Part shown: positions 12,866 through 50,193 of the stretch, in pieces
How the letters are laid out: every line of letters starts with the position of its first letter
Numbering within the stretch: the first letter of the stretch is position 1
Source of the DNA: Limonium bicolor
Taxonomy: Eukaryota > Streptophyta > Magnoliopsida > Caryophyllales > Plumbaginaceae
Direction of reading: 5' to 3'
DNA: 64,000 bases
NCBI GenBank assembly: GCA_023374045.1
Contig: CM041776.1
Span: 41,422,171-41,486,170, forward strand
Notes under the pieces: generated by a model
The model's input: the letters and a program-made list of their open reading frames with translations, nothing else
What the model was told of the DNA's origin: nothing
The model's database searches: none
Translations under genes and position numbers: made by a program

Positions 12866-15800
12866 TGAAATACCCCAAACCTTGGTATGTTGTATAAATG
12901 TTAAACTATGGTATTTAAAAAGGCTAAAAAGTGCCTTAGAAAAATCAATGAACCATTTAAACCATGGTAAAACACAATAAAACGCTAAGACACGGTTTGA
13001 GCAAAAACATGCTCTAAACTTGTGTGAACTTGGTTAGGACCCAAGGAGCCTACCAAGACTTAATAACATTTAATTATGATTTTATAAGGCTAATTAAGTC
13101 CTTAGGAAACCTTGGTAGACATTGGAACCAAACAAAACATAAATAAATACCTTAAGGTCAATATGGGCTAAAAAGTGCTCTAAGCTTGGGATAAATTTGT
13201 ATAAGACCTAATGGTCATACCTATACCTTATAAATATGTTAATGAACATATTAAATCAATTACCAAAGAAAACCAAGCTTGAAAACAAGTTAAAACACAA
13301 AAAAATGCTTTAAGGAGTCTTAAAGCGCATTTTTGAAAAATTGTCTTGTAAATGAGTTTTGAGTGGCTAAATGTCCATCATTACTCTTAAATATATATGT
13401 GTACTATATAGTATCACATTTGGATGTCTATATCAATAGGAAATCAAAATTTTCACTTCTATGTGCCTTGTTTTTGTGAATAGTGATTTTTATAAGCTAG
13501 TTTGTAACATATGTTATCATAAGTAATTAAATTGACAAATAAAGACTAAAGTACCCTTATGTAATAAAGGGGGCCGGTTTTCTTAAGTGTGACTCACCAC
13601 TCTCTTGTTAATTTACTAAGAAAAGAAAGAATGACTAATTAATGTACTATTTGCTTTATAAGAACAAATATCTTCAAAAAGCAAAGTTTATCTTCATTCT
13701 CTCATTTCTTTCTCATTTCACACGGTTCCACTCTTCTTCAACCTCTGTTCTTCTTGTTCTCTCACGGTAATACTCACCACCACCATTAAACTCTAGCTTT
13801 GACCTCTTGTAAAATCTAGCTCACTTAACCAAATCAAAAACAAACATCACCATTCTCTCCCTCTCATCAAGCTCTTCATTCCTATCTTCTCAAAATTCCA
13901 AGACCACCATTTGGGTGCCATGGAGTTCCACCATTGATGGAGCTTGAGCTTGTGTTTCTACATATTATTCTCCTTTGCTTCTAGGTAAGGAATCTCAAAA
14001 AAAATCAAGTTTCCTTCATTTTTTGCCTTGACCGAAATTGCACATTAATGGTGCTCTTGGTGTGACTTTGTTCTAGCTTCATTCCAACCTTTCATGGACT
14101 AGGTGGAGTCCTCTCTTCATAGATATTCAAACTCTCTTCAAAGATCAAGGTAAAACAACTACATTAATGTTGTTGAAACAATGTAAACCTAGGGTTTACA
14201 ATGAGATGAAGCTTAAAGCTTGTATACTCATTTCAATGTTTGTATATTGTGTAGTAGTTGACAAGGAATCAAATACCTTACCGGTTTTGTAAAAGAAACA
14301 AGAAAGAAGTTTGGGTGGAAAAGAGGTAAATATGCTATCTCAATGTGGTTTAATGCCTTAGGAGAAATGAGCTTATAATGCTTGTTAAAACTACCTAAGG
14401 AGCTAATGGTAAAGGACTTAGTGAAAAGTTCTCAAGGAGACTAGTAAAAGGACATATGTAATGTTGAGTGTATTTGCAGGTCAAAGGCATTATTTATGTG
14501 GGAAATTCAGTGTTTATGGTTTATGCAATTTAAGGGCCTAAGAGCCATGTTATTTAAGGGCCTAAGTGCCAAGCAATTTAAATTGTGCACTATATTGTGA
14601 TGTAGTGTAAATTTGGTGAAGTCTTGTGTGTGATGGTGTTCTTGATGGATTTAGGTGTTCTTGAGTGTTTAATGGTGAAAACTATGAGTTTTGGAATGAT
14701 GATGTGCTAAGAGAACCCATGGCAAAATTTGTAAAATGTATAAAGGAGTTTTAAGTGCTTAAATGAATTTTGGTGAACTAGGAATTGTTAGGAATGAGTA
14801 AATGTTTCACTAAGGAAGAAAACATGCATTAAGGGTTCTAGAGTGCTACAAGGATTTAGGCATTATCTTGGAATTTATAAATCCATTGGGTGTTCTTAGG
14901 ATGTATTAAGTCTTGGAGAAGTTTGTTTAAGGTTTAGGCAATGTGTTGCATAAGGAGGGAATGATGTTTGAATAAGGTTTTGAGTAAGGAATTTTAAGAA
15001 ATTGTGAAAAGAAGATTTGGTTAGTAAGAGGAGATGCTTGGGAGATGATGTTTGAAGGTGAGGAAGCATTTTAGTGTAGTGGTCATTTAAGGTGAAACAC
15101 CACTTGGAAAACCAAAAGGAAATGTTACAAGTGTTAAGAGATTTGATAAGAATTGAGTAACAAGTTGGATAATGTTTTAAGGTGAATCAAAGTGATATTT
15201 TAGTATTAGAATATGCCTAAGTTCATGTATGAAGCTTGGGTAATCAATGGATGAAGATAAGAGGTGAAACAAGACTTGGAAAGTGAAGTTCTGGCCCGTC
15301 CGAACTTGGACGTTCGGACGTGCTCTGTGTACGCGTAGGTTTTCTGATCTTCGACTGATGTCCGAACTACCGTCCGAATATGGGAAGTTCGGACATACTT
15401 ATTTTATTCTCTGGTTTGGCTTCGAACGGCGTCCGAACTTGGGAAGTCCGGACGCAAGTTCGGACGTTCACCAGTTTGTTCCCTTAGAGTCTCGAACGGT
15501 GTCCGAACTTGAGAAGTCCGGACACAAGTTCGGACAAGGTGCTGTTTTGACCAAAGAGGGTGTTTAAGGTATGGAAATGATGTGTAATGATGGGGATTGA
15601 TGATTAATGATGTCATGAGGTTGTTAAGGACATGTTAAGTGAGTTATAATGATGATTGAGTGGGTGAAAGTAAAAGAAGATAAATGTGAAGTAATTTAAT
15701 TAATTTATGGGGTTAATCATGGTTATTCGATGTTACACAAACATGTTACCCCCAACGCTAATGAACAACTTGAATTACCAGTTGTTCGAGAATTGTTCGA

Positions 15801-22021: not shown

Positions 22022-22655
22022 CTTTCTGAAATACCCCAAACCTTAGTATGTTGTTTAAACATTTAAATATGGTATATTAAGACTAAAAAGAGTCTTAGAA
22101 ACATTAGTAAACAATTTAAACCATAGGAAACACATATAAATGCCTTAAGGTCAATTAGGGCTAAAATGTGCTCTAAGCTTGGGATAGGCTTGGGTAAGAC
22201 CTAATGAGCTTGCCAAGACCTTGTTTGTATACTAGTGAACATATTAAACCAATTACCAAAGAAAACCAAGCTTGAAAACAAGCTAAAACACAAAATGTGC
22301 TTTAAGGAGTCTTAAAGCACATTTTTGAACAATTGTCTTGTAAATGAGTTTTGAATGGCAAAATGTCCATCATTACTCTTTAATTAACATGTATACTATA
22401 TAGTATCACATTTGGAAGTCTATACCAATGGGAAATCAAAAATTTCACTTCTATGTGCCTTGTTTTTATGAATAGTGACTTTAATAAGCTAGTTTGTAAC
22501 ATATGTCATTATAAGTAATTAAATTGATCAATAAAGACTAAAATACCCCTAAGTAACTATTGGGGGCCGGTTTTTTTTAAGTGTGGTGACTCACCACTCT
22601 TGTTAACATGTTAAGTAAATAAAGATGACTACTTAAGTTATTATTTACTTTAAGG

Positions 22656-22663
22656 TATAAATA
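22656..22663 (+). promoter_or_regulatory. TATA box of the chromovirus LTR
   Basis: TATAAATA lies in the upstream half of the LTR before a CT-rich stretch at about 22690. The same word occurs in the 3' LTR at 46792-46799, and a weaker TTTATAAG occupies the equivalent place in the solo LTR. Transcription start is not visible from sequence. Confidence 0.6.
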
Positions 22664-24296
22664 TCTTCTAAAAGCAAAACTTATCTCATTCTCTCATTTC
22701 CTTCCTCATTTCCCACGGTGCCAAGCTCTATTCTACCTCTTCTTCATTCTCCATTTACGGTTTGCAATAGTACACACCAAAGCTCCATCTTTGACCACTT
22801 GTATCTCCTAGCTCACTTAACCAAATCAAAAACAAACACCACCATTCTCTTCCTCTCATCAAGCTCTTCATTCCTATCTTCTCAAAACTTCAAGACCACC
22901 ATTTCGGTGCCATGGAGTTCCACCATTGAAGGAGCTTGAGCTTATATTTCTACATATTATTGATCTCCTTTGCTTCTAGGTAAGGAATCTCAAAGAAAAA
23001 TGATGTTTCTTCCATGTTTTTATCTTGACCGAGAATCACCATTAATGGTGCTCATTATATTGCTTTGTTCTAGCTTCATTCCAACCTTTCAAGGACTAGG
23101 TGGAGTCCTCTCTTGATATATATTCAAACTCTCTTCAAGTTCTAAGGTAAAACAACTATCTTAATGTTTTTAAAACAATGTACAATCTAGGGTTTACAAT
23201 GAGATGAAGCATAAAGCTTGTATACTCATTTTATCATTTGTATAATGTTTAGAAGTTGACAAGCAACTAAAAGCCTTGCCGATTTAGTCAAGGAAACAAG
23301 AAAGAAGTTTGTGGGGAAAAGAGGTAAATGTGCTAACCTAATGTGGTTTAAGGTCTTAGGAGAAATGAGCTCATATTGCTTGTTAAAATGATCTAAGGAG
23401 CCAATGGTGAATGACTTAGTAAAATGTTCTCAAAGGCTTAGTAAAAGGCATATATATTGTTGAGTGTATTTGCAGGTCAAAGGCAAATATAATGTGGGAA
23501 ATTCAGTGTTTATGATTTATGCTTCTTAAGGGCCTAAGAGCCATGATATTTAAGGGCCTAAGTGCCATGCAATTTAATTATGCATTGTGATGTGGTGCTA
23601 AATGAGTGAAGCTTTGTGTATAAGAATGTGTTTGATGGATTTTAGTGTTCTTGGATGTTTAATGGTGAAAAAAATGTGTTTTAGCGTGGTAATGTTCTAG
23701 AAGAGTTCATGTTAAAATTTAGGTAATAAACAAGAAGTTCTAAGGGTTTTAAGTGAGTTTGATAAGTTAGGAAATGTTTAGGATGGATAAGTGCTTTCCT
23801 AGTGGAAGAAACATGCATTAAGGGGTTTAAAGATGTAAAAAGGGCTTAAGCAATGTTCTAGAGGATTTAGAATGCAAAACAATGTTTTAGGGACATTTCA
23901 AGATCATGGTGAGATTGTGTTAAGGACTTATGCAATGTTGGTGAATAAGGATGAAGTGATTTGTTGCATGGGGAGCTATAAACTTGTAAAGATGTTCAAG
24001 GAGTTGTTTAGGAAGAAAAGATGCTTGGGAGATGATGTTGTAGTGGTGAGAAAACATTTGGGAATAGTGGGAGTTATAGGTATGAGACACCACATAGAAA
24101 CTTAGTGAAAAACATTATAAGTGTAAACCTTTTTATAAGAATTTGTGTAAATGCTTGAGGAGGATTTTAGTGAATGATTTATGGAGTTTTAAGGAGGTCT
24201 TAAGGTGTGTTTGAAGTGCCCAAATGAGGTTAGGATATACTAGGATATATGAGGTGAAGTTTGGAGTTAAATGGGCAATGGAAAATAAGGGTCTGG

Positions 24297-24712
24297 AGCA
24301 GACCGATCTTACGACCGAACTTGCCAAGATCGGTCGAGCCCAGTTTACCCTGCGAGAATTGGTTTCTGGAATGGACCGACCTTGGGGACCGGACTTGCAA
24401 GGTCGGTCGGGCATGGATTTTTAGTACGGATTGAGTCTCTGGAATAGACCGAGCTTGGGACCGGACTTACAAGTTCGGTCATGCCTGAATTTTTGTACGT
24501 GAGTGAGTCTCGGGAATCGACCGATCTTGCGACCGATCTTGCGACCGGACTTGCCAAGATCGGTCGGGCCTGAATTTTCAAAGGGAAGAAACTCTCGGGA
24601 ATTGACCGAACTTACAAGGTCGGTCGGAGTAGAAAATTTTGACGGTAATATGTTCTGGAATGGACCGACCTTGTGTAAGGTCGGTCGGTAAGTTCGGTCG
24701 GACCTAAACTTG
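24297..24712 (+). repeat. Tandem hairpin array, chromovirus 5' LTR
   Basis: Six units of about 60-80 bp each contain a stem such as GACCGACCTTG facing CAAGGTCGGTC and a linker starting CTGGAAT or CGGGAAT. Relative to the 3' LTR copy there is an extra GACCGATCTTGC within one unit. Confidence 0.82.
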
Positions 24713-26063
24713 TAAAAAAAAACAAACAAGAATGGCTTAAGTAATAAACCCTAGGGGGTATAATGAAGGTAATCAAGTATAAGTTAAGACATTAAAACAT
24801 GTCATATAAACATGTTAAACACTTAATAAATTTGAAGTTAAGTAAGTAATTAACCGACATTCTTAAACATGTATAGGAGTGACCTACGGTGGAAATCAAT
24901 CGAAGCAAGGACCAAGGTATGGTTTTCTTGCAGTCTGTTGCCTACCGGTTTACACCGGCTTGTGTGTTGTTTGTTTTTCTGTGAGTTTATGACGTTGTAA
25001 GACTTAATCATGTAATGATTTACAGTTGTTCATATTATTGTGATGTTATGATGTGACTCTTTTCCTTGTGTGTCTAACATGACTTATCACTTGTTGTGAA
25101 TTGTTTTTAAGTTCCACTGTTGAACTTCTAACAAGTGCTAACTGGGAAGTGAGGAATCCGGTTTTCCGGTCATGCATGTAAGTTAAGAGTAGATATCTGA
25201 ATCAGATTCGACTCTTATGTTGTTAAGATTGTCCTCCTTAATTTGGCGTTCGATCTCCCGCTAGCTTCCTCCAAAGCTTACCTATTCTGACTTATGATCG
25301 GTTTAGTGGGAACATGTGTTTGTTGGTGGTGTTTCGGGTCACTATATCCGAACCATCTGTGACTTAAGTTACTCGTTCGAATAACAGAACGGTAATGAGT
25401 GTGTGTAACGAGCTTAACATAGAGAACCATTCTCTAGGCTCTTATGTTATTAACCTTCTTGGTTGTTATTGTGGAAAGAGTATCCACTGTGTATGTGATG
25501 TTGTGCTATGCAATAATAATGCTATGCCACATGTTATGTTATGTTATGTTATGTTTAAATGAATGCCATGTTATCATGACAATTAGTTGCGCGTATCCCG
25601 GTAGCCGATGGGCTGCGCGTTAACCATACCAGCCAAGGGTTGCTGACCCCCTCGGGGGCTTCATATTTCTTTTACTGCAGGATGAGGATCGAAGAAGCAG
25701 AATGGCTCTAGATTCTAGGATGCAGGATTACTTTTGGGTTATTTTGGATGTTGAGCCCGGGATGCGCCTGTGCTCCCGTGGCATTATACTTTGATTCCGT
25801 TGATACTACTGTGGCGGTAAATTGGCGGTTTACAATAAAGGAATGTAATTAAATACTCGGTATTGTATATGAGGTATTTATGGTTTTAGTTCTATGCTCG
25901 AGAGTCTGATCATCAGACCGGTACACTTGTATTTATTCTGCCTTGTTAACCACGTGGGTGGTTGACGGCGTTGTAGCACCAATCGTTTAGTTATTGTTTA
26001 GTTGTTTATTCTCCGCTGCGACTCCAGTTAATAGTAAGTGTGTAGTAGGGGTGTTACAAAAAG

Positions 26064-26075
26064 TGGTATCAGAGC
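26064..26075 (+). promoter_or_regulatory. Primer-binding site of the chromovirus
   Basis: TGGTATCAGAGC lies five bases after the LTR end, as expected for priming by initiator-Met tRNA. The next bases make an inverted repeat with it (AGAGCGAAG facing GCTCTGATG), a structure also present in element 1. Confidence 0.92.
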
Positions 26076-26275: not shown

Positions 26276-27741
26276 ATGTCAGGTAGACCGCGAGGTCGAG
26301 GCCGCGGAAGCGGTGTTGGTGACACTGGGAACCAGGGAGAGAACCCTACGGCACAAGCCATGGCCGAAGCTGTAGCGGCTGCCGTAGCCCAAATGGTCCC
26401 ACAACTTGTAGCTGCGATTCAGCAGGGGCAACAGCCCGAAGTTCAACCACCACCGCCACCGCCACGAGAGACTAACTGGGTCAAGGCATTGGCAGACTTG
26501 AGACCCCCGTCGTTCCATGGGGATACCGACCCACGTAAGCTGGAGGCGTACATCTACGAGTTGGAGACCGCCTACGAGACCTTGGATGTGCCTGCTGGGG
26601 CCAAGGTCCGTCTTGCCGCTTACTATCTGAAGGGTTCGGCACAGAGTTGGTGGAAGTTTGTGAGAGAGGACCGCATGGCGGATCCTCAGTTTGGTTGGAG
26701 GGAGTACACGGCTCTGCTGCGAGCCAAGTATTACCCTGTGCATGTTCAAGAGGCTAAGCGCCTGGAGCTGGATAGTCTGAGGCAAGGGGACAAGATGTCG
26801 GTCGATGAGTACTACACTGCATTCACCGGTCTTATCCACCTGTTACCGGACCTGGGATACTCGAACCGGGTGCTGGTAAACCGTTTCTACAACGGTCTCA
26901 GCCACTGTCTTCGCTATGGGATGGGGCCAGCTGAGTATACTACCTTGCAGGTAATTAGAATACAGTGTGATGTGAATAAGTGTAATCCATAAGTGAGTAT
27001 TAATGTGAGTTTGTGAGTATGTTTTGCGGGGCATAACTGACATCCTAAATTCAGGAGTGCTATCATGCCGCTGCTAAGGTTGAGATTACTGTCCGTCTGA
27101 GGGACGAGGAGAACGCACACAAGCGCAAGGCCACGAGCGAGGGCCAGAGTCCGCAGGGGTACGGGGGAGGAAAGAAGAAGAAGAAGCCTTATCCCCAGCC
27201 CCAGAAGAGTCAGCACCAGGGTGATAAGGGCCAAGCCCAAACCACCACAGCTGAGGAGCCATTGAAGCTCACATATGCTTATGCGGCGAAACCCCTACGC
27301 TCTTACCCACCTAAGGGTAATTATTTAATCATGTGTGACAAGTTAAAGTATATGTTGTTAAGTTATGAAATAAGTATTGATTGTGTACTGTGATAGCAGC
27401 TAGCACGGGTTCTGGACCGGAGCGCCACTATTACTGTAAGTGGTGTAACGGAGACCACCCCGGCAAGGACTGCAAAGGAAACGACGTGCAGTGTCGTTAC
27501 TGCGAGAAATGGGGTCACCGTGACTACGAGTGTTACCGGAACCCCAACAGCAGAGTCAACAAGCCCAAGGGGCAGTGGAAGGGTAAGGCCACAACGACTA
27601 TTGATGGCCCGAAGATGGCTAACCAGCCACCCACAGATCAGAGGAGCACTGATTCCCTGAAGGGGAAGGGGTCGGGACCTAGCAAGGCCACCCTGCATGT
27701 GGTGGACCGGTCTGAGGCGCCAGGGCCCTCTTCTAGACCAG
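26276..27741 (+). CDS. gag: Gag of the chromovirus, in three exons
   Basis: Gag forms the particle shell that packages the element RNA. The start ATG at 26276 begins MSGRPRGRGRGSG. Exon 1 (26276-26950, 225 codons) has the retrotransposon Gag fold signature: LRPPSFHGDTDPRKLEAYI, then YLKGSAQSWWKF, then DEYYTAFTGLI. Exon 2 (27055-27316) carries a lysine-rich stretch. Exon 3 (27400-27741) has two zinc knuckles, CKWCNGDHPGKDC and CRYCEKWGHRDYEC. The introns 26951-27054 and 27317-27399 are GT-AG, and removing them keeps one frame; read straight through, the frame stops at 26992. The exon 3 end (phase 1) joins in frame to the protease exon at 28813. All three exons are free of stops and frameshifts. 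Splicing is inferred, not observed. Confidence 0.88.
26951..27054 (+). other. Putative gag intron 1
   Basis: It starts GTAATTAG after the codon CAG and ends CTAAATTCAG before GAGTGCTAT, phase 0. It contains in-frame stops. The residues on both sides (EYTTLQ and ECYHAAAK) read like continuous Gag sequence. Confidence 0.75.
27317..27399 (+). other. Putative gag intron 2
   Basis: It starts GTAATTATT and ends GTGATAGCAG, phase 1, restoring the frame into the zinc-knuckle exon. Two acceptors three bases apart (TAG at 27396 and CAG at 27399) are both in frame. Confidence 0.72.
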
Positions 27742-28812
27742 GTACCGCCTAAACTGTTGAGTGAAATAAGTGATTGCATACCGCATTTCATGCATATGTG
27801 TGTTAGTGAGTCCAAGTGTATTATCATGTGAGCAAAGAAGTAAAGTGTAATGTGAAAGTCACCTAATTAGGTAATTATAAACTTAAAGGAACCTTCAATA
27901 TATGTTATCCAATCCCACCCACACCAAACCCTGAAGAAACCACCATCAACATCACCGACTATCCAATGGAGCAATGTCAGGTCATCCAACCAGGTATGAT
28001 ACTCTTAAATGGATACCTGACACCGGAAGCACAAGTCCACATCATCAGACGATGCAATGAACTTGGAGCAACACCAGGAGGTTTCTACACACCCGAATAC
28101 CCGAATGGATCAAGAATGAAGTTGAAGATGATGTGCATGGGTAAGGACTGGAATCTTTACACCAAAACATATCAAGAAGTGTGAGCTGAAGATGGAGCAA
28201 CTGTACCGATGATACTTGAGGAATTCCTTGCGGTTGTTGATCACACCGTGGGGATTGCTCAGCAAGTTGAAACGGATTCAATTCCAAGTGTTAAAGCAGA
28301 TTTGTGTATTGTGAACTTCTACCAGAAAGGTGGACGGTTGGGTTTACACCAAGATAAGGACGAGTCACCCGAGTCTCTAAGTAAGGGAGTACCCGTGGTG
28401 TCTTGGTCCATTGGTGATACCGCAGTGTTTATATATGGCGAGCAAAAGCGTGCTGATCTCGCGAAGAAGTTAGTACTAAAATCAGGAGATGTGTTAATCA
28501 TGGGTGGGCAGTCAAGGATGCTATATCATGGCATCAGGAAGATCAAACTGAATACCGCACCATCGGCAGTGATCAACGCCACACACATGAAACTCGGACG
28601 TTTGAATTTGACCTTCAGACAGTTTTAAAACCTTGTATAATTATGTAATGTGTTAAGCCAGTGTATGTTAAGGATGTTATATATGTGTTAGTTATGTTAA
28701 CAATGTAAACCAACGTATGATGTAAGAAGAGTGTGTTAATGAATAAAGTGGAGTTGTTGAAGTATATCAACCGTGTTGTTACCCAATACTTATTAGTTTG
28801 CCAATGAATTAG
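27742..28812 (+). other. Putative intron 3, hosting the AlkB-like frame
   Basis: The donor GTACCG follows the codon CCA plus one base, and the acceptor TGAATTAG precedes GCTGTGCACTCGG. Joining them gives a Gly codon and continuous Gag-to-protease frame. Without splicing, the Gag frame ends at 27752. Inside the 1071 bp intron is an AlkB-like frame on the same strand (27966-28628), followed by ~180 bp of AT-rich sequence. Confidence 0.72.
27966..28628 (+). pseudogene. AlkB-family Fe(II)/2-oxoglutarate dioxygenase captured by the element
   Basis: AlkB enzymes oxidise methyl groups off nucleic-acid bases using Fe(II) and 2-oxoglutarate. The frame starts at ATG 27966 (MEQCQVIQPGMILLNGYLTP) and ends at TAA 28626. 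It has the metal triad His128 and Asp130 (GLHQDKDESP) and His188 (MLYHGI), and the 2-oxoglutarate arginines Arg212 and Arg218 (RLNLTFRQF). Between lie KGVPVVSWSIGDTAVFIYG and LKSGDVLIMGG, strongly like plant ALKBH1-type proteins. Codon 73 is TGA (28182-28184); the frame continues unshifted beyond it. The TGA is one transition from CGA, so decay, a sequencing error or a true two-part frame are all possible. Length, 220 codons, is about that of the catalytic domain. The frame is open upstream for some 20 codons, so a spliced fusion to Gag is conceivable. It lacks an N-terminal targeting extension. Confidence 0.85.
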
Positions 28813-28947
28813 GCTGTGCACTCGGAACGGGAGGTACACTGAGTGTCTGCAATGAGGCAGAAGCCGGCAAGAGCGGCACAATCCTCACCGGTACCTTTCC
28901 AGTCAATGGCGTGGACGCTTCGATCTTGTTCGACTCCGGAGCCTCAC
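28813..28947 (+). pseudogene. pro: Protease start of chromovirus, broken by insertion
   Basis: This exon follows intron 3 and reads through GTFPVNGVDASILFDSGAS, with the aspartic-protease active site DSGAS. The coding frame is cut at 28947 by the nested element and resumes at 42591 with HTFISLSFAKRLGL after the repeated CTCAC. The break separates the catalytic residues from the rest of the protease, so this copy cannot make Pol as it stands. Confidence 0.88.
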
Positions 28948-29968
28948 TGTAACACCCCCGAATCACGACCAACAATAATACTACGCGCCTAAGTTAGCGG
29001 GAGAAGTCTACGCAGCGGTTTCGAACTTTATTCGGGTGCTACAGACGCCAACCACCCACGTGGTTGACAGTCCTCATTACCAACTCCAAGTTACGGTCTG
29101 TATGACTGGAAGTCCAACTTAACGAAATCCAAATACAATATAAAGTACAACTCAAGTACCGAGCATCTACAGTTTAGTTAACAACTTAAACAACATAACT
29201 CATACATAAGAAAGCATACTACTTAAAGTCTTGCCATGTGGACTACCCCTATGATAGTCACCCTTGCCTACTCTCCGTTATCGTCTGGCACAAGACCTGA
29301 AAAAAATTGGGTGTAAAGGACTCAGCAAACTACGCTGAGTATGAACGTGTGAAGCCCGCATGTTACCGGGCCACACGACTACTTGGTCGAATATTATTAG
29401 GTCAATTTACATGCTATGTTAAAGCAGTAAAGCACACATCAGTACATCATAATATCATACACACTCATCGGTAGCATAGCAATATCAGCAAGCAACCAAG
29501 CACAACTTGCAAGTAGCATAGCAATGTCAATAAGCAACCAAGCACAAAAGCTGCTAATGTAGCAACAACAATCAAGTACATGATACAACGTGTGCGTAGG
29601 TATATTATACCGTCGATCCTCACTATGGGATCATTCAAGAGATTACGTATCGTTTTCTCGTTCTCATTACACAGGTTTTCTTTTCTTTTCTTGCACCGAG
29701 TCAGGGAATATAGGTTAGATCCCGAGACTTCATTATGTAGGTGCTATTCATTCCTTGTTTCTTAAAGGATCACATTTGTGACTTTCTCTTGTTTGCTTGG
29801 TCTCGTTACACAAGTTTCCCTTTATTCTCTGGCACCGAATCAGGGGATATAGATTAGATCCCGAGACTTCATTATGTAGGTGCTAATCGTTCCTTGTTTC
29901 TTTAAGGATTATTTGTGAATTCTTTTATCACCGCACGTTGGAGGACGTCTCCTCCATAGCTAGTCCCC

Positions 29969-30190
29969 CATTCCCGACACCCAGGGTCAAGGAAGCGGAA
30001 GTCACCTCTGGACTCCGGGATAAGCTTCACCAATTTGTCACTCCCCCATTCCCGACACCCAGGGTCAAGGAAGCGGAAGTCACCTCTGGACTCCGGGATG
30101 TGCTTCACCAACTTGTCACTCCCTCATTCCCGACACCCAGGGTCAAGGAAGCGGAAGTCACCTCTGGACTCCGGGATGTGCTTCACCAAA
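29969..30190 (+). repeat. 78 bp tandem repeats (about 2.9 copies)
   Basis: Units start TTCCCGACACCCAGGGTCAA at 29971, 30049 and 30127. Because 78 is divisible by three the array stays open in several frames, giving a false 130-codon frame. The other LTR has the same array at about 37428-37650 with small indels. Confidence 0.88.
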
Positions 30191-31279
30191 ATATATTCCA
30201 TCATAGACGGTCGAAGGATCTGATGCAGATACCAACTCCCGATCATCCATACCGCGCGGCCCGAGCTGTTGTCTTCCCGGGTTATTCTCATGTTTCACAG
30301 TTGATACTTTTCGTTTCATTATCATTATAATCTCGACACCATAGTGGGTGTCATTAGCGGTCCTCTAAAGTTAGAGAGGATTTGTCTCTTTGTATAATTC
30401 TTTTGTTTTGTCTACGTGGTTCGTCATGTCTCACCAAAGGAGACTTGCTCTTCATTATCATTAATGAATAGACACCATAGTGGGTGTCGTGGTAGTCCTC
30501 GATGGTTTAGAGAGGAGTTCCCCTTATAGAGTTTTCTTTATTTTCATAATTCGTAGTAGTTCATCTCAAGGTCCATAAACGAGAAAGGGACTAAACTACT
30601 GTGTGCGCGCAAGTAAAATGCCACAAGGATATATATAACACGCATAAAAGCAAGCCACAAGAAGCAATCCAATTTTCATGCTTTTAGTCTTAGAGTCATT
30701 GTCACACAAAGCACACAGCACACAAAGCAAACAAGCCGTGTAACACGGCAACATACGAACCACACATGTCCATACCTTATTCAGAAGCAAATGTCGTCTC
30801 ACGCACTGGGCCCCGGGTAGCATTCATTACGACCCTAGCGTTGATTAAAAATAATGTGTCAGTTTATAATTTCATGTGATGACCCTTGTGACATTCTCCT
30901 AGTTTATCACATTTTATCGGGGTTGTTCCCTAGGTGAATTCTTTGTTGAAGGTTCAACTGACATTAGCCCTTAGAAACTTCACAAGTAATAACCTTAGGT
31001 TTTATCTCACTCCTAGAACATTTACATCGTCAATTCACAAGTTAACTAGGTTATCAATGTTTTTAACCTAGCATCACAACAATATAGTCTTTAAAGTACC
31101 CCCGAAACCCATTGATACAGGAGTCCCAAAATTTATAAACTGCAACATAATTTCGGTATTGAATCACACTTAACCTCTCCTCTAATGTATCCACGGTGGT
31201 TTATTTTATCCCAAAATGTTCCTCCAACTAATTAGGTACAATAGTACCGGTTTGGGTTCATTATCAAACTAAAATCACC

Positions 31280-33500
31280 CTTATAATGCCCCAGTAATCT
31301 TGGTATACAGAAACTATAATACTAATGAGAATCTGAAACCACAATCTAAATGTTCCTTCTTGTTTCTTGTTTTTCTTGAGTTGAATCGATGTTTCACTCT
31401 CTCCCACAGTATTACCCAACTAGCTATAGGTGTTAATAATGTTTTAAACTCCAACCCAACTCAAAACAACATTGATAACAACTCTGGAAGTTCATTATAC
31501 AGAGGGCAGAAACTGAACAAACAAACTGAAACAACAGCTTGTATAATCTCTTTTTCACTTACTTCTTAATTGATCAAACTGACTTCCAACCCTTCCCCAT
31601 GCATAACAACCTAGACAAATGTATTAGCACTGATTTAGGTTGATTTTTAACCTAACACAACCCTCTTTAACCCTCTGTATCTCAGTTATACTGAACACTC
31701 GATCAGGGAAATCTGTTAAAAGACAACTGAAACAGGATCAGTTTATTCCTCTTTGATCCTTGCTGTTAGCTGATTAGATTAACTCCTAATTCAACCCAAG
31801 GGTGTCTGTAACTTCTCTCAAGTGTATTAGGTGTGTTTGGGTTCGTTAGTCACTCAATACACCCCTTACAAACCCTCTGTAATAAGTTGTACAGAAACAA
31901 ACTTTCAGAAACAAAACATAAAAACTGAAGTATTAAGTTCTGCTATCTTCTCTTTTATTCCTTTCTGTTAGCTCACGTCTTGGCACCCAATCTATCCTAT
32001 ATTACCCACTTGGTTAGTTAAGACTTTAATCAAGATTCTAACATCAAAGATAGGACCCAAGAAGTTAGACAGAGCTACTGAGATGTCCCAAACTGATTCG
32101 AAGAGAACCTGAAATCACAAATTGACGTAACTCATTTCTGTTGCTTGGTTTCCTGTTACCTAAACCATTTCTTAATTTTCCCCAACCTGCTCAGCTTCTT
32201 AGTTACGTGTATTAGGAAGATCTGAACTTAGAAACTACTCTACCCAAGGCTGCTAATACTACTGAAAGTTCATTTTACAGAACTAAAACACACCCTGAAA
32301 CCTGAAACCGAAAACTGGTGTGGCTTTACTTTTACCATTCTTTTCTGTCACATATCCTGTTTTCAAATTTCTCCCCCGACCTATCCACAGGTAGGCTTAT
32401 GGGTTAGTAGAATTTTTGAACCATTCTCAAGCCACTATAGCTTCCTTAACTCCTCTGAAAGTCATTCATACAGAGAGAAATCATCATAGAACCTGAAACA
32501 CCCTTTCGGTGTTCTACTTTATTTAGTTTCAGTTTTAGTTTTCTCCCACTGACTGTAACCTTCCCAAGGTGTATGCTAACTTAGGTGAGTGTAGTATCCA
32601 TGCTTTAGATCCATTATTACACCCACACGCCCTGTTAACAATTCAGTAACTTAATCCTCCAGAAAACTTGAGAACTGAAACACTGAGAAAGGAACAGTCT
32701 GATATTCTCCATTCCATTTCTTTTCTCTATTTACGAATGGATCTTCAATTCTTCCCTAATTACTGTCTTGGTTACTTAAGTGTTTTATCAAGCTTCCAAC
32801 CCCAAACAAAACCCAACGCTACTTGGGTAACGTTACTGGTATATCCAAACACTGAAACTGGCAAAGGAAAACGAAACTCTGAACCCAAAACTGGTAAAAA
32901 CGGAACCTCAACAGCTGATAAGCTCTCCTTGCATATCTTCAGTTATTTATTTCTGTCTTAATATGTTGGCTGGTTCTCGCTAGATTTTCTAGCCATCTAG
33001 CTACTTCCCTTAACATGATTTTAACTTCGTAACAGACCCCAACAACAAGGGCTATACCCCCGAGAACTAGTATACAGAAGAACACAACCTTTCAGAATTG
33101 AAAACCTGCGACACCAGAACTGATAAGTTCTTTTTATTTTCTATCTTCTGTTTTGCTTTTCATTCATGGATATGGTGTTTAATCCATTAATAATCATCAC
33201 CACTCCACGGTACACCCTAGCCAGCTAGAATACAGACACCACAGATTATAAGTTTCAGTAAATCCTCAGGTTGACAGGACGGCTCATCATTAAGTTGTTT
33301 TAAGTGTTCTTTTCTTTTTCTTTTCCCTTCCCAACCACTACCAGATCAGTTACTACTTTAGTTGAGGGTACTAACAAGCTTTAGGTAGATTTCTAATTCG
33401 ATAATGTATCAGATTCCCCTCTGGAGTTCCAGTTATACAGGAAGGTAATGGGTTTTAAAAGAAATTGTACAGAAGGCTGGATTCGATACCTTTGGTTTTT
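31280..33500. repeat. Degenerate ~150-250 bp repeat field in the nested LTR
   Basis: A motif of the form CTCTG..AGTTC/CAG-TTATACAG-A..ACTGAAAC..., then a CTTTTATTTCTTTTCTGTT-like tract and CCCA, recurs at least ten times with strong divergence (examples near 31485, 31675, 31870, 32265, 32455, 32650, 33060, 33235 and 33420). The same field occurs in the other LTR at about 38750-40880. Confidence 0.6.
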
Positions 33501-34212
33501 TCCTCTCTGTCTTTTGGAATGGGAATTTCCTCCTGGAGATTCTTGGCACGGTATAGGCTTCTAGATTCTTGAACTCACGACTCCTCTGGAAAATTTTTCC
33601 ATGTGTTAATCTTTAGCAACCCAGAAGTGAAAACGGATGAGAAGTTGGAGAAATGCAGCTTTATGCAAATGGAGGTTTTCCTTTTTTTTTACCTTCTGTT
33701 AATGTCCTAGCAGAGTATAAGTTGCAAGATCTCCAGTGCTCCTCTCCTTCTTAGCATGTATGGCTCTTACGTGATACAACAGGAAGGTTAGGAAGATTGA
33801 AGCTAGCATAGTTTTCAGGCAAACCAAACAGAGAAAGAGAGGGACTTTTTGCAGTCTCTTTACCTCGCTAGTTCCTTGGGTCTATTGTTTCAGATTCCTA
33901 AGAGCCTGGCACCGGCTCGAACAGACAGACAGGAGAGAGATCCAGCAGGTTGGAGATCACTGGTTAACAAGAGAAGGTGCAAGAATATTGTGTCAGTTTT
34001 TTTTTCTTCGAACTGCAACAACAAAACTGGAGGAGTTTGGGAGTGCCATGAAGGCTTGGGTCTACCCTTCTCGCATGAGCAACACACAGAAGCTTACCTG
34101 TGTTGTGGTTGGCACGGCATGCAGAGGAAAGAAGAATAGTCAAGCAAGGGTATAAATAAGAGGTTGGGTTGGAGGAAAAAGAAGAGCACTCGTGAGACAA
34201 TTGTTGGTGGGC

Positions 34213-34712
34213 NNNNNNNNNNNNNNNNNNNNNNNNNNNNNNNNNNNNNNNNNNNNNNNNNNNNNNNNNNNNNNNNNNNNNNNNNNNNNNNNNNNNNNNN
34301 NNNNNNNNNNNNNNNNNNNNNNNNNNNNNNNNNNNNNNNNNNNNNNNNNNNNNNNNNNNNNNNNNNNNNNNNNNNNNNNNNNNNNNNNNNNNNNNNNNNN
34401 NNNNNNNNNNNNNNNNNNNNNNNNNNNNNNNNNNNNNNNNNNNNNNNNNNNNNNNNNNNNNNNNNNNNNNNNNNNNNNNNNNNNNNNNNNNNNNNNNNNN
34501 NNNNNNNNNNNNNNNNNNNNNNNNNNNNNNNNNNNNNNNNNNNNNNNNNNNNNNNNNNNNNNNNNNNNNNNNNNNNNNNNNNNNNNNNNNNNNNNNNNNN
34601 NNNNNNNNNNNNNNNNNNNNNNNNNNNNNNNNNNNNNNNNNNNNNNNNNNNNNNNNNNNNNNNNNNNNNNNNNNNNNNNNNNNNNNNNNNNNNNNNNNNN
34701 NNNNNNNNNNNN
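34213..34712. other. Assembly gap of exactly 500 N
   Basis: The left flank ends GTTGGTGGGC and the right flank starts AGAAACTCTTG. In the other LTR (41627-41648) these two flanks are directly adjacent, with no bases between them. The Ns are thus probably a fixed-size placeholder at a contig join, and any reading frame crossing them is meaningless. Confidence 0.95.
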
Positions 34713-35252
34713 AGAAACTCTTGTTGTTTTCAATGCAGGGTTGGTGGAATTTTGCAAAAGGGATGGTCTCTGATGCGTGAGAGTTAGAACAGGATCGAAC
34801 TTTGATGTGTATGTCAATGTTCTGCTCATTTTTGCTGAACCCAAGGAGGTGCAGTGGGTGTTTGTGGACTGGTAGAGATTATTGTACTTGTGTCTCGATG
34901 CTGCAGAGAATAGAAGTGGGGAGCGGAAAATAATACTGGGTATTGAAGTGCTGGTTCTGATTACAAGTTTTGGCGTGATGCCTATTGTCATTCCTCCATT
35001 TTTTTTTGATCCGGGGCGTGACATTCAGGAGGGAATGGTGCTGGGTGATCTCAGGTTACAAGGAGAACATGGGCATTGGAATAAAATAGGGACTGTCGCC
35101 CAAGATTCCTCTGATTTCCATTGTTTTTGGTCGATCTGGTTATAGTGAGGAAGAAGAAGAACTTGTCGTTGCCACAGGGATACGTTTGGTACTTCTTTTT
35201 GTAGTTGGCTTACTAGACTCGACACTAGTATTAAACGGTTGGTATAGATTAC

Positions 35253-35361
35253 TGAAATCGAGCATAGCTCAAATGGTTAAGCATTTGGGGACAGGTACGG
35301 GAGGTCTCGGGTTCGAGCCTCAACAGGAGTGTTTTTGTCCCTTTTTCTTTCTTTTTTTTTT
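35253..35361 (+). ncRNA. tRNA/SINE-like Pol III module (copy in 3' LTR)
   Basis: An A-box-like TAGCTCAAATGG (35265-35276) is followed 33 bp later by a B-box GGTTCGAGCC (35310-35319), then T-rich tracts ending in ten Ts (35352-35361). This is the layout of a tRNA-derived SINE head or a tRNA pseudogene. It lies on the strand opposite to the host LTR. I cannot complete a cloverleaf. Expression is not known. Confidence 0.5.
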
Positions 35362-35468
35362 GTATAAGTTAAACTTGCTTATTTATATATGTAAGACTAT
35401 ATAATATACCGCGTTATATTTATTTATTTAGTTGTCACAAAGTTATGCGACGTTATCATTTATATTAC

Positions 35469-35490
35469 AACGTTACGATATCGTAACGTT
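35469..35490. promoter_or_regulatory. 22 bp perfect palindrome in LTR U3
   Basis: Each half is AACGTTACGAT or its complement, centred on ATAT-free AT|AT at 35479/35480. It lies 175 bp inside the LTR start and is conserved at 42390-42411 in the other LTR. AACGTT is an ACGT-core word of the kind bound by plant bZIP factors; a role as enhancer is only a guess. Confidence 0.55.
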
Positions 35491-35665
35491 ACGCCCATGT
35501 AGTTTTCGTATTAGTACATATTTAAGTACGCGACTTTATTAGTATGTAGCGTCGTCACGCGTTCGGACATATGTATATACTAGATTTAATTTTTTGTACG
35601 TTATTTTATGTCCGAATTATAAAACGCGTTATGATTTTATGCGTTTAATGTTCAGGGGTATTTCA

Positions 35666-36421
35666 ACTTACCCCCCTTAAAAGAGACTTCGTCCGAAGTC
35701 CTTACGTCCTTAACTTATATTCACTCTCCTGTAACCTTAGGATCCAGTCCCCGCATCATTATCGTACCCATCAAAGATTAAGTCCCATAATATAATGTTC
35801 GGTTGCTTTTAAGTACCGTGCCACATCAGTGGCTTACACCTAGTTCTCATAGTAGCCAAGAAGCTAGCAATGTGTATTAACATGCTAAAGTGCAAACCAA
35901 GGCACCCGACATTCATTCATCCATTGCGTACATAACATTTTGCAACACCCAATCCAAACCCATAAACATACCAACCACCACGACTTATTGGTGTTTTGTA
36001 GGAAATCACATCCTAATAAATCAACACACCCTCCACAAAACAAAACGCGCGTTACCCGAACCACGAGTGGTTGTAGGAAACATCATAATAAATCAACACA
36101 CTACAAAACAAAACGCGCTTACCCCCCTTAAAAGAGGGGTACGCCCCCGTACCCTACACTAAACCAAACATCGATGAAAGGTTGGGGTACCTTGTTTTCC
36201 TTACCGGATTGATATATGCCATTGTGTAACCGCCAGATCGGGTTTTCCCGAGTGTGAGGAGGCTTTCTACCTCTCCAGCATTTCCCTATGGATTGAAATT
36301 GACCCTAACTAACGAGCCTCACAAACTAACCCGTAACCCCGTTTCTCAAATTTAGGTTTTCCTATACTCGGTACTCCTCTGTTCCGTCATCAGAGCGCAA
36401 CTACACTCTGATACCACTTTC
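35666..36421 (-). mobile_element. 756 bp interior of the nested element
   Basis: Read on the minus strand it contains the primer site, a short leader with CGGGAAAACCCGATCTGG (also found, diverged, in element 1 at about 5135), a purine tract CTTTTAAGGGGGGTAAG (about 36121-36137), some 3' UTR-like sequence and the LTR-adjacent tract CTTTTAAGGGGGGTAAGT (35666-35683). There is no gag or pol trace. Confidence 0.87.
36406..36416 (-). promoter_or_regulatory. Primer-binding site of the nested element
   Basis: The reverse complement reads TGGTATCAGAG, eleven bases of the initiator-Met type; the twelfth base is T in place of C. It lies five bases from the LTR. Confidence 0.85.
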
Positions 36422-39400
36422 TGTAACACCCCCGAATCACGACCAACAATACTACGCGCCTAAGTTAGCGGGAGAAGTCTACGCAGCGGTTTCAAACTCT
36501 ATTCGGTGCTACAGACGCCAACCACCCACGTGGTTGACAGTCTCATTACCAACTCCAAGTTACGGTCTGTATGACTGGAAGTCCACTTAACGAAATCCAA
36601 ATACAAATATAAGTACAACTCAAGTCCGAGCATCTACAGTTTAGTTAACAACTTAAACAACATAACTCATACATAAGAAAGCATACTACTTAAAGTCTTG
36701 CCATGTGGACTACCCCTATGATAGTCACCCTTGCCTACTCTTCGTTATCGTCTGGCACAAAGACCTGAAAAAAATTGGGTGTCAAGGACTCAGCAAACTA
36801 CGCTGAGTATGAACGTGTGAAGCCCGCATGTTACCGGGCCCACACGACTCTTGGTCGAATATTTTAAGTCAATTTTACATGCTATGTTAAAGCTAAAGCA
36901 CACATCAGTACATCATAATATCATCACCTCATCGGTAGCATAGCATATCAGTAAGCAACCAAGCACAACTTGCAAGTAGCATAGCAATGTCAATAAGCAA
37001 CCAAGCACAAAAGCTGCTAATGTAGCAACAACAATCAAGTACAGATACAACGTGTGCGTAGGTATATTATACCGTCGATCCTCACTATGGGATCATTCAA
37101 GGATTACGTATCTTTTTCTTCGTTCTCATTACACAGTTTTTCTTTTCTTTTCTTGCACCGAGTCAGGGAATATAGGTTAGATCCCGAGACTTCATTATGT
37201 AGGTGCTATTCATTCCTTGTTTTCTTAAAGGATCACATTTGTGACTTTCTCTTGTTTGCTTGGTCTCGTTACACAGTTTCCCTTTATTCTCTGGCACCGA
37301 ATCAGGGGATATAGATTAGATCCGAGACTTCATTATGTAGGTGCTAATCGTTCCTTGTTTCTTAAGGATTATTTAGAATTCTTTTATCACCGCACGTTGG
37401 AGGACGTCTCCTCCATAGCTAGTCCCCATTCCCGACACCCAGGGTCAAGGAAGCGGAAGTCCCCTCTGGACTCCGGATAAGCTTCACAATTTGTCACTCC
37501 CCCATCCCCGACACCCAGGGTCAAGGAAGCGGAAGTCACCTCTGGACTCCGGGATGTGCTTCACCAACTTGTCACTCCCCCATTCCCGACACCCAGGTCA
37601 AGGAAAGCGGAAGTCACCTCTGGACTCCGGGATGTGCTTCACCAAAATATATTTCCATCATAGACGTCGAAGGATCTGATACAGATACCACTCCCGATCA
37701 TCCATACCGCGCGCCGAGCTTTGTCTCCCGGGTTATCTCTCATGTTTCACAGTTGATACTTTTCGTTTATTATCATTATAATCTCGACACCATAGTGGGT
37801 GTCATTAGTGGTCCTCTAAAGTTAGAGAGGATTTGTCTCTTTGTATATTCTTTTGTTTTGTCTACGTGGTTCGTCATGTCTCACCAAGGAGACTTGCTCT
37901 TCATTATCATTAATGAATAGACACCATAGTGGGTGTCGTGGTAGTCCTCGATGGTTAGAGAGGAGTCCCCTTATAGAGTTTTTCTTTATTTTCCATAATT
38001 CGTATTGTTCTCTCAAGGTCCATAAACGAGAAAGGAACTAAACTACTGTTGCGCGCAAGTAAAATGCCACAAGGATTATAATAACACGCTAAACGCAAGC
38101 CACAAGAAGCAATCCATTTTCATGCTTTTAGTCTTAGAGTCATTGTCACACAACGGTCAACAAGCACAGCACACAAAGCAAACAAGCCGTGTAACACGGC
38201 AACATACGAACCACACATGTCCATACCTGGATCAGAAGCAAATGTCGTCTCACACACTGGGCCCCGGGTCATTCGTTACGGCCCTAGCGTTGATTAAAAA
38301 CAATGTGTCAGTTTATGATTTCATGTGATGACCCTTGTGACATTCTCCTAGTTTATCACATTTCATCGGGTTTGTTCCCTAGGTGAATTCTTTGTTGAAG
38401 GTTCAACTGATTAGCCCTTAGAAACTTCCCAAGTAATAACCTTAGGTTTTATCTCACTCCTAGAACATTTACATCGTCAATTCACAAGTTAACTAGGTTA
38501 TCAATGTTTTTAACTAACCTAGCATCACAACAATATAGTCTTTAAAGTACCCCCGAAACCCATTGTACAGAGTCCAAAATTTATAAACTGCAACATAATT
38601 TCGGTATTGAATCACACTTAACCTCTCCTCTAATGTTCCACGGTGGTTTATTTTATCCCAATTGTTCCTCCAACTAATTAGGTACAATAGTACCGGTTTG
38701 GGTTCATTATCAAACTAAATCACCCTTATAATGCCCCATAATCTTGGTATACAGAAACTATAATACTAATGAGAATCTGAACCACAATCTAATTTCCTTC
38801 TTGTTTCTTGTTTTTCTTGAGTTGAATCGATGTTTCACTCTCTCCCACAGTATTACCCACTAGCTATAGGTGTTAATAATGTTTTAAACTCAACCCAACT
38901 CAAAACAACATTGATAACAACTCTGGAAGTTCATTATACAGAGGGCAGAAACTGAACAAACAAACTGAAACAACAGCTTGTATAATCTCTTTTTCACTTA
39001 CTTCTTATTGATCAAACTGACTTCCACCCTTCCTGCATATACCAACCTAGACAAATGTATTAGCACTGATTTAGGTTGATTTTACCTAACACAACCCTCT
39101 TTAACCCTCTGTATCTCAGTTATACTGAACACCGATCAGGGAATCTGTTAAAAGACAACTGAAACAGGATCAGTTTATTCCTCTTTGATCCTTGCTGTTA
39201 GCTGATTAGATTAACTCCTAATTCAACCCAAGGTGTTGTAACTTCTCTCAAGTGTATTAGGTGTGTTTGGGTTCGTTAGTCACTCAATACACCCCTTACA
39301 AACCCTCTGTAATAAGTTGTACAGAAAAAACAACTTTCAGAAACAAACATAAAACTGAAGTATTAAGTCTGCTATCTTCTCTTTTATTCTTTCTGTTAGC

Positions 39401-42400
39401 TCACGTCTTGGCACCAATCTATCCTATATTACCACTTGGTTGTTAAGACTTAAATCAAGATTCTAACATCAAAGATAGGACCCAAGAAGTTAGACAGAGC
39501 TACTGAGATGTCCCAAACTGATTCGAAGAGAACCTGAAATCACAAATGACGTAACTCTTTCTGTTGTGCTTGGTTTCCTGTTACCTAAACCATTTCTTAA
39601 TTTTCCCCAACCTGCTCAGCTTCTTAGTTACGTGTATTAGGAAGATCTGAACTTAGAAACTACTCTACCCAAGGCTGCTAATACTACTGAAAGTTCATTT
39701 TACAGAACTAAAACACACAAACCTGAAACCGAAAACTGGTGTGGCTTTACTTTTACCATTCTTTTCTGTCACATATCCTGTTTTCAAATTTCTCCCCCGA
39801 CCTATCCACACGTAGGCTTATGGGTTAGTAGAATTTTTGAACCATTCTCGAGCCACTATAGCTTCCTTAACTCCTCTGAAAGTCATTCATACAGAGAGAA
39901 ATCATCATAGAACCTGAAACACCCTTTCGGTGTTCTACTTTATTTAGTTTCAGTTTTAGTTTTCTCCCACTGACTGTAACCTTCCCAAGGTGTATGCTAA
40001 CTTAGGTGAGTGTAGTATCCATGCTTTAGATCCATTATTACACCTACACGCCCTGTTAACAATTCAGTAACTTAATCCTCCAAAGAAACTTGAGAACTGA
40101 AACACTGAGAAAGGAACAGTCTGATATTCTCCATTCCATTTCTTTTCTCTATTTACGAATGGATCTTCAATTCTTCCCTAATTACTGTCTTGGTTACTTA
40201 AGTGTTTTATCAAGCTTCCAACCCCAAACAAAACCCAACGCTACTTGGGTAACGTTACTGGTATATCCAAACACTGAAACTGGCAAAGGAAAACGAAACT
40301 CTGAACCCAAAACTGGTAAAAACGGAACCTCAACAGCTGATAAGCTCTCCTTGCATATCTTCAGTTATTTATTTCTGTCTTAATATGTTGGCTGGTTCTC
40401 GCTAGATTTTCTAGCCATCTAGCTACTTCCCTTAACATGATTTTAACTTCGTAACAGACCCCAACAACAAGGGCTATACCCCCGAGAACTAGTATACAGA
40501 AGAACACAACCTTTCAGAATTGAAAACCTGCGACACCAGAACTGATAAGTTCTTTTTATTTTCTATCTTCTGTTTTGCTTTTCATTCATGGATATGGTGT
40601 TTAATCCATTAATAATCATCACCACTCCACGGTACACCCTAGCCAGCTAGAATACAGACACCACAGATTATAAGTTTCAGTAAATCCTCAGGTTGACAGG
40701 ACGGCTCATCATTAAGTTGTTTTAAGTGTTCTTTTCTTTTTCTTTTCCCTTCCCAACCACTACCAGATCAGTTACTACTTTAGTTGAGGGTACTAACAAG
40801 CTTTAGGTAGATTTCTAATTCGATAATGTATCAGATTCCCCTCTGGAGTTCCAGTTATACAGGAAGGTAATGGGTTTTAAAAGAAATTGTACAGAAGGCT
40901 GGATTCGATACCTTTGGTTTTTTCCTCTCTGTCTTTTGGAATGGGAATTTCCTCCTGGAGATTCTTGGCACGGTATAGGCTTCTAGATTCTTGAACTCAC
41001 GACTCCTCTGGAAAATTTTTCCATGTGTTAATCTTTAGCAACCCAGAAGTGAAAACGGATGAGAAGTTGGAGAAATGCAGCTTTATGCAAATGGAGGTTT
41101 TCCTTTTTTTTTACCTTCTGTTAATGTCCTAGCAGAGTATAAGTTGCAAGATCTCCAGTGCTCCTCTCCTTCTTAGCATGTATGGCTCTTACGTGATACA
41201 ACAGGAAGGTTAGGAAGATTGAAGCTAGCATAGTTTTCAGGCAAACCAAACAGAGAAAGAGAGGGACTTTTTGCAGTCTCTTTACCTCGCTAGTTCCTTG
41301 GGTCTATTGTTTCAGATTCCTAAGAGCCTGGCACCGGCTCGAACAGACAGACAGGAGAGAGATCCAGCAGGTTGGAGATCACTGGTTAACAAGAGAAGGT
41401 GCAAGAATATTGTGTCAGTTTTTTTTTTCTTCGAACTGCAACAACAAAACTGGAGGAGTTTGGGAGTGCCATGAAGGCTTGGGTCTACCCTTCTCGCATG
41501 AGCAACACACAGAAGCTTACCTGTGTTGTGGTTGGCACGGCATGCAGAGGAAAGAAGAATAGAATCAAGCAAGGGTATAAATCAGAGGTTGGGTTGGAGG
41601 AAAAAGAAGAGCACTCGTGAGACAATTGTTGGTGGGCAGAAACTCTTGTTGTTTTCAATGCAGGGTTGGTGGAATTTTGCAAAAGGGATGGTCTCTGATG
41701 CGTGAGAGTTAGAACAGGATCGAACTTTGATGTGTATGTCAATGTTCTGCTCATTTTTGCTGAACCCAAGGAGGTGCAGTGGGTGTTTGTGGACTGGTAG
41801 AGATTATTGTACTTGTGTCTCGATGCTGCAGAGAATAGAAGTGGGGAGCGGAAAATAATACTGGGTATTGAAGTGCTGGTTCTGATTACAAGTTTTGGCG
41901 TGATGCCTATTGTCATTCCTCCATTTTTTTTGATCCGGGGCGTGACATTCAGGAGGGAATGGTGCTGGGTGATCTCAGGTTACAAGGAGAACATGGGCAT
42001 TGGAATAAAATAGGGACTGTCGCCCAAGATTCCTCTGATTTCCATTGTTTTTGGTCGATCTGGTTATAGTGAGGAAGAAGAAACTTGTCGTTGCCACAGG
42101 GATACGTTTGGTACTTCTTTTTGTAGTTGGCTTACTAGACTCGACACTAGTATTAAACGGTTGGTATAGATTACTGAAATCGAGCATAGCTCAAATGGTT
42201 AAGCATTTGGGGACAGGTACGGGAGGTCTCGGGTTCGAGCCTCAGCGGGAGCGTTTTTGTCCCTTTTTCTTTCTTTTTTTTTGTATAAGTTAAACTTGCT
42301 TATTTATATATGTAAGACTATATAATATACCGCGTTATATTTATTTATTTAGTTGTCACAAAGTTATGCGACGTTATCATTTATATTACAACGTTACGAT

Positions 42401-42585
42401 ATCGTAACGTTACGCCCATGTAGTTTTTCGTATTAGTACATATTTAAGTACGCGACTTTATTAGTATGTAGCGTCGTCACGCGTTCGGACATATGTATAT
42501 CTAGATTTAATTTTTTGTACGTTATTTTATGTCCGAATTATAAACGCGTTATGATTTTATGCGTTTAATGTTCAGGGGTATTTCA
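36422..42585 (-). mobile_element. 5' LTR of the nested element (6164 bp)
   Basis: It is homologous throughout to 28948-35665. The right part (from about 40.0 kb) is almost identical to its partner, while the left part (36.4-39.8 kb) differs mostly by one- or two-base indels. In its first ~470 bp I count roughly a dozen indels and four to six substitutions. It repeats the 78 bp array, the repeat field, a tRNA-like module (42175-42282; A-box 42187-42198, B-box 42232-42241) and the palindrome (42390-42411). Confidence 0.9.
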
Positions 42586-42590
42586 CTCAC

Positions 42591-50188: not shown

Positions 50189-50193
50189 CTTTC

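Follow-up and report, generated by a model that had tools for sequence, protein, structure and literature searches.

How does a gene for an AlkB-type nucleic-acid demethylase come to lie inside a gypsy retrotransposon, and does it matter to its carrier? The question is raised by a locus of Limonium bicolor, analysed here in a window of 64,000 nucleotides (contig CM041776.1 of assembly GCA_023374045.1, positions 41,422,171–41,486,170, forward strand; coordinates below are counted within the window), where one chromovirus-type long terminal repeat (LTR) element spans 22027–50188. Judged from sequence, a many-copy Ty3/gypsy element of chromovirus type has probably acquired a plant dioxygenase of the ALKBH1 type, which has since been maintained by selection, and seems to splice it alternatively, yielding either Gag-AlkB or Gag-Pol.

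The AlkB frame occupies 27966–28628 (220 residues) on the same strand as gag, downstream of the zinc-knuckle exon and upstream of the protease, as the original prediction, made from the letters of the window, had stated. The frame covers the whole Pfam PF13532 profile (E = 2e-45, a stop codon being entered as X; 6.2e-36 for the stop-free C-terminal part alone). The catalytic set named there (HQD at 128–130, His188, Arg212, and Arg218) recurs in an alignment of 40 AlkB proteins: His128, Gln129, Asp130, and His188 are invariant, and Arg212 and Arg218 are conserved in at least 90% of them; the HxD...H and RxxxxxR residues of an ALKBH1-type AlkB can thus be read in the sequence. The window copy itself is broken, with one TGA within the frame. 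Because CGA stands at this codon in copies L004, L006, L007, and L008, and Arg in L009, the TGA is decay of one copy. The original prediction was right about a conserved AlkB in a gypsy element, but overlooked this stop, the introns, and the alternative exon. The features in and around the frame are as follows; the aligned sequences are the window and 20 copies picked by AlkB.

27889–28628, + strand: putative AlkB alternative terminal exon; acceptor AG/GAACCTTCAATAT (the slash marks the splice site), phase 1; ATG at 27966, stop at 28626–28628
28182–28184, + strand: in-frame TGA, codon 73 (CGA in the four same-strand copies)
28742–28747, + strand: AATAAA, possible poly(A) signal 3' of the AlkB stop, in 20 of 21 aligned sequences (AACAAA in L024)

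Upstream of 27966, the exon starts with a 25-codon extension (FNICYP) that holds no in-frame ATG and resembles the [FY][DN]IC (FDIC-like) motif found in 27 of 120 listed homologues.

The AlkB frame is a family-wide trait of a many-copy element. A search of the 2.92-Gb genome with AlkB gave 51,065 first-look candidates; all 150 places scored, window included, cover no fewer than 219 of the 220 residues with at least 93% identity, and 130 are stop-free as read from the match table. A list picked by AlkB favours intact AlkB; therefore a second search used only gag exon 1, which is matched at all 150 places scored, window included, out of 71,045 candidates, and ranks 2–25 were retrieved. Of these 24 copies, 23 have AlkB at the position seen in the window, after the zinc-knuckle exon and before the protease; the sole exception, L057, has lost it by a deletion with breakpoints within exon 3 and near the protease acceptor. 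Ten 10-kb stretches taken at round coordinates contain no AlkB; one of them, L044, ends within a gag exon. Several copies of the element stand head to tail at G000 C1:497439439-497470359 with a spacing of ~10.0–10.6 kb, and downstream gag matches are seen in L029, L031, and L033, as if neighbouring copies had common LTRs.

Constraint on the AlkB frame, asked for together with these further copies when the gene was first noticed, is seen in the 23 gag-picked copies (L057 was left out of the counts). With the window included, the ratio of non-synonymous to synonymous polymorphism (pN/pS) is 0.17, whereas the two wrong frames give 1.07 and 1.47. Variants present in at least two copies were assumed to descend for the most part from active sources; these number 21 non-synonymous (N) and 52 synonymous (S), a relative N/S of 0.12 (1.30 and 2.44 in the wrong frames), while singletons number N77/S41 (relative N/S 0.54), and the difference between shared and singleton variants is significant (Fisher p = 1.4e-6). 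Stop-creating changes comprise ten single and no shared ones. In the 20 AlkB-picked copies plus the window pN/pS is 0.11, a value biased low by the choice of copies; the same sample gives 0.25 for gag exon 3, 0.29 for the AlkB extension, and 0.38 for the protease, and across its 20 copies gag exon 2 has a pN/pS of 0.16, with stops in 3 of 20. Maintenance of AlkB by selection in the element family is thus well supported by the sequence comparison. A functionless chance capture in one copy would fit the stop codon of the window copy and its splitting by a nested element, but AlkB is found throughout the copies examined and is constrained, so that this explanation has a negligible probability and is rejected.

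The sequence supports an organization, newly described here, in which three introns interrupt gag, the third of them holding AlkB as an alternative terminal exon:

26276–26950, + strand: gag exon 1 (capsid), Pfam Retrotrans_gag
26951–27054, + strand: intron 1, GT..AG, GC content 0.35; precisely absent in L025, L076, and L077
27055–27316, + strand: gag exon 2 (basic linker), frame common to the 20 AlkB-picked copies
27317–27399, + strand: intron 2, GT..AG, GC content 0.27, tandem AG acceptor TAGCAG; precisely absent in L022, L025, and L077
27400–27741, + strand: gag exon 3 (two zinc-knuckle motifs), ending at the common donor CCAG/GTACCG, phase 1
27742–28812, + strand: intron 3, containing the AlkB exon; wholly absent in Gag-Pol copies
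28813–28947, + strand: start of the protease exon, acceptor TTAG/GC, phase 1; interrupted by a nested insertion

GC content is 0.27–0.35 in the introns vs 0.57–0.58 in the gag exons. As read from the sequence, the donor after exon 3 can be joined to either of two acceptors in phase 1, that of AlkB or that of the protease. An AG ~18 bases upstream (27869–27870) was considered as the AlkB acceptor and ruled out: a stop follows in the frame of some copies, L011, L015, L018, and L021 among them, and the junction searches fitted the later acceptor.

For these searches, a 25-base pattern of the exon 3–protease junction and a 33-base pattern of the exon 3–AlkB junction were used, with the reversed patterns as controls. 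The former matches 13 genomic places (five exactly) and the latter 14 (eight exactly), the reversed controls none; L061, matching the AlkB pattern with three mismatches, was dropped as an unspliced copy, which leaves 13. Four of the five junction loci read are true (L074, L076, L077, and L078). Here, L077 lacks introns 1, 2, and 3 and has exon 3 joined to the protease, as in a spliced Gag-Pol; L076 lacks introns 1, 2, and 3a and has exon 3 joined to AlkB, as in a spliced Gag-AlkB. At its intron 2 junction (L076:565-572) a CAG is kept, which fits the first (upstream) AG of TAGCAG and adds one in-frame codon. Introns 1 and 2 are also missing from L025, and intron 2 from L022, the boundaries in L025 being exact.

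Several observations weigh against a selected, alternatively spliced AlkB. L074 has lost intron 3a alone and retains introns 1 and 2; L078 has lost intron 3 but retains intron 1 and ~90 bases at the site of intron 2; and L076 retains the stretch between AlkB and the protease, because of which the AATAAA was not used in the RNA behind this copy. Two of the 13 exon 3–protease matches were read (L077 and L078, both true), the remaining 11 resting on the 25-base pattern; the matches are partly non-independent, with near-duplicate tandem-like pairs at ~10.1 kb (exon 3–AlkB) and 9.2 kb (exon 3–protease); and an earlier, shorter exon 3–AlkB pattern (26 bases, 13 matches) had one false match, L075. 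In the gag-picked sample AlkB has a stop in 9 of 23 copies and an indel relative to the window in 16 of 23, as expected of dead copies, while pN/pS indicates weak or no constraint in the AlkB extension (0.36 over 25 codons) and the exon 3 end (0.62), and reaches 0.71 at the protease start (shared N9/S3). Particle packaging and the choice of substrate, considered below, are inferred.

Two other accounts of the junctions have to be set against splicing to Gag. AlkB may be a separate protein started from its own ATG (27966) on an unspliced or separately started RNA, the exon 3–AlkB junctions being minor. This ATG is kept in 20 of the 21 aligned sequences (ATA in L015), the weak constraint upstream of it in the gag-picked sample agrees, and the AlkB element of an orchid uses a separate open reading frame (ORF; PMC9289625); however, the frame and its likeness to homologues continue upstream, where no in-frame ATG exists, and at 13 places (two of them read) exon 3 is joined in frame to this upstream stretch, so we hold a separate start to be unlikely. 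Far less credible is an origin of the junction copies by DNA deletion, or their descent from an ancestral intronless arrangement. A deletion variant does exist (L057/L073), one pattern match was coincidental (L075), and several copies lack just one intron; but in the copies read the losses fall at the GT..AG ends of three AT-rich introns in varied combinations, the junction searches came after the intron sites and the protease acceptor had been fixed, and the one for AlkB after its acceptor had been, and L076 fits the tandem-AG alternative at intron 2. Splicing of AlkB onto Gag therefore remains our preferred reading.

The enzyme is of the ALKBH1 type by sequence and by predicted fold, in agreement with the original prediction. 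The nearest solved structure by sequence is rice ALKBH1 (OsALKBH1, PDB 5xeg/5xoi; 6.5e-64, 49% identity), which also has the nearest fold to the AlphaFold model (template modelling score, TM, 0.92–0.93; mean predicted local distance difference test, pLDDT, 95.7), followed among solved folds by Escherichia coli AlkB. A tree of 63 proteins, which contained no ALKBH5-type rows, unites six element copies with five metagenomic proteins in one clade (99/93) and sets them apart from 42 sequences (99/92), of which 39 are named angiosperm proteins and three unnamed; given this separation, the donor is not any sampled angiosperm gene. The metagenomic proteins (P0001–P0004 and P0042), 61–70% identical to the element AlkB in the search listing, could represent the same element family in other plants. 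A scan of viral contigs with P0001 confirmed no relative, and gag exon 1 gave no match in the protein database at a threshold of 1e-20.

What would the spliced products do? Joining of the exon 3 donor in frame to AlkB would give a Gag-AlkB protein of ~670 residues with AlkB at its end, and joining to the protease, with AlkB skipped, would give Gag-Pol. The Gag part may then carry AlkB into virus-like particles, where the zinc knuckles would hold the element RNA, and the packaged enzyme might strip methyl groups from genomic RNA (N6-methyladenosine, m6A, or N1-methyladenosine, m1A) or from single-stranded complementary DNA (cDNA; N6-methyladenine, 6mA); this could shield the element from host marks or repair alkylation. 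We give about even chances to the whole proposal: by alternatively splicing a captured eraser onto Gag, a plant chromovirus would bring the enzyme into the particle along with its genome and there clear host methylation from the RNA or the cDNA under synthesis. Element RNA or nascent cDNA would be the likeliest target by analogy, because Nicotiana benthamiana ALKBH1L is reported to remove m6A and to regulate a virus infection positively (PMC12736721), and ALKBH9B removes m6A from ONSEN, as mentioned in PMC9289625.

Overlapping with this proposal, the enzyme may repair alkylation or act on host RNA, and not erase host marks on the element; we regard this as a tentative possibility, somewhat short of probable. 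The second-closest solved fold, that of E. coli AlkB, belongs to a repair enzyme, and repair has been proposed for the AlkB domains of plant RNA viruses (PMC9289625). In contrast, OsALKBH1 provides the closest structure, reports have ALKBH1 acting on 6mA in single-stranded DNA and R-loops (PMC10469495), and ALKBH1L is the reported m6A eraser cited above, both reports bearing on the element protein by analogy and not directly.

The element around AlkB is bounded and arranged as follows:

22022–22026: target-site duplicate CTTTC, just before the 5' LTR
22027–26058, + strand: 5' LTR, TGAAATACCCC...GGTGTTACA, 97.4% identical to 46165–50188 over 4058 columns in self-BLAST
26064–26075, + strand: primer-binding site TGGTATCAGAGC, read from the sequence
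42591–45830, + strand: remaining pol (end of the protease and reverse transcriptase piece, both by eye; integrase C-terminus, SH3_Tf2-1, chromodomain)
46165–50188, + strand: 3' LTR, from self-BLAST against the 5' LTR
50189–50193: second copy of CTTTC, just after the 3' LTR

The LTRs are 4.0 kb long, and their identity suggests an age of about 1–2 million years at plant rates. The primer-binding site we take to be of the initiator-tRNA-Met type, and together with the LTR ends it presumably gives the element a Tekay-like look. The capsid of gag exon 1 matches Pfam Retrotrans_gag (E = 4.1e-18). The two CCHC-like zinc knuckles were identified by eye, their region giving under-cut-off Pfam matches (zf-CCHC_3, E = 0.015; PHD, E = 0.002), and the protease was assigned by eye from a DSGA motif. 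Pfam gave no match in the reverse transcriptase piece of the window (42820–43290); downstream pol pieces of copy L031 match RVT_1, RT_RNaseH, Integrase_H2C2, and SH3_Tf2-1, with rve under its cut-off (E = 0.0039). The gypsy order gag-protease-reverse transcriptase-RNase H-integrase can thus be read between the LTRs, with the protease taken by eye and the last three domains from L031. The original prediction of a chromovirus holds with a caveat: SH3_Tf2-1 in the window element is well above its cut-off, but the chromodomain, in its expected place after SH3_Tf2-1 (~45681–45812; E = 1.2e-4), scores 22.3 bits, below the curated cut-off of 25.1.

An element-borne AlkB eraser, as originally suggested, is not new as an idea: gypsy elements of Phalaenopsis (Gypsy_Pa_2799), published in 2022, carry an ALKBH5-type m6A eraser active in vitro (PMC9289625, here and below). 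Both are plant Ty3/gypsy families with many copies and an AlkB domain with intact cofactor residues. Gypsy_Pa_2799, however, has a Tat/Ogre-type reverse transcriptase, LTRs of 6.4 kb in an element of 25 kb, one ORF for gag-pol and, apart from it, an ORF2 of 565 amino acids with the ALKBH5-type domain, whereas the L. bicolor element has a chromodomain match below its cut-off, which would speak against the Tat/Ogre lineage, LTRs of 4.0 kb, and an ALKBH1-type AlkB as a probable alternative gag exon. The activity in vitro belongs to the orchid AlkB; the L. bicolor AlkB is known from sequence and predicted fold. With ALKBH1 and E. coli AlkB as its nearest structures, and apparently joined to gag, the latter does not seem to follow the orchid type, an ALKBH5-type AlkB in a separate ORF. 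Plant ALKBH1 (OsALKBH1) has the same catalytic residues but is a cellular gene; plant RNA viruses (Alphaflexiviridae, Betaflexiviridae, Closteroviridae) likewise bear AlkB as parasites and are compared here by description (PMC9289625).

As regards expression, plant LTR elements are generally without introns, Ogre and EVADE being exceptions, and an element with three introns in gag and an alternative terminal exon is unusual among them, according to the consulted text of a 2025 review (PMC12786077). Splicing adjusts the gag/pol products of Ogre, EVADE, and BARE1 as well, in EVADE yielding a short GAG, but that text describes no captured enzyme spliced onto Gag. Neither an AlkB-bearing chromovirus nor a Gag-AlkB splice form was found among the papers listed in the literature searched, whose coverage leaves out most subscription journals. 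The capture is apparently independent of that in the orchid and uses a different expression strategy; it would be the second by a plant retroelement, with another AlkB subfamily and seemingly another element lineage. In that case plant retroelements would repeatedly need to deal with nucleic-acid marks, and the orchid elements would be no mere curiosity; the Gag-AlkB splice form, predicting where the enzyme goes, makes the question testable.

The protease exon is interrupted by a nested LTR element:

28943–28947 and 42586–42590: 5-bp duplicate CTCAC
28948–42585, strand not given: nested LTR element, LTRs at ~28948–35665 and 36421–42585

Its LTRs exceed 6 kb each, with merely ~0.75 kb separating them, and are 97% identical in the left part and 99% in the right. 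The first contains exactly 500 N at 34213–34712, where comparison with the second suggests that hardly any sequence is lost; 78-bp tandem repeats lie at 29953–30275, also within the LTR. Elsewhere in the window, 7370–9763 and 13065–15154, in opposite orientations, resemble the AlkB element's LTR at ~80% and may be older relatives or solo LTRs, and pieces of a Ty1/copia element, with matches to copia gag and RVT_2, lie at 56340–60487.
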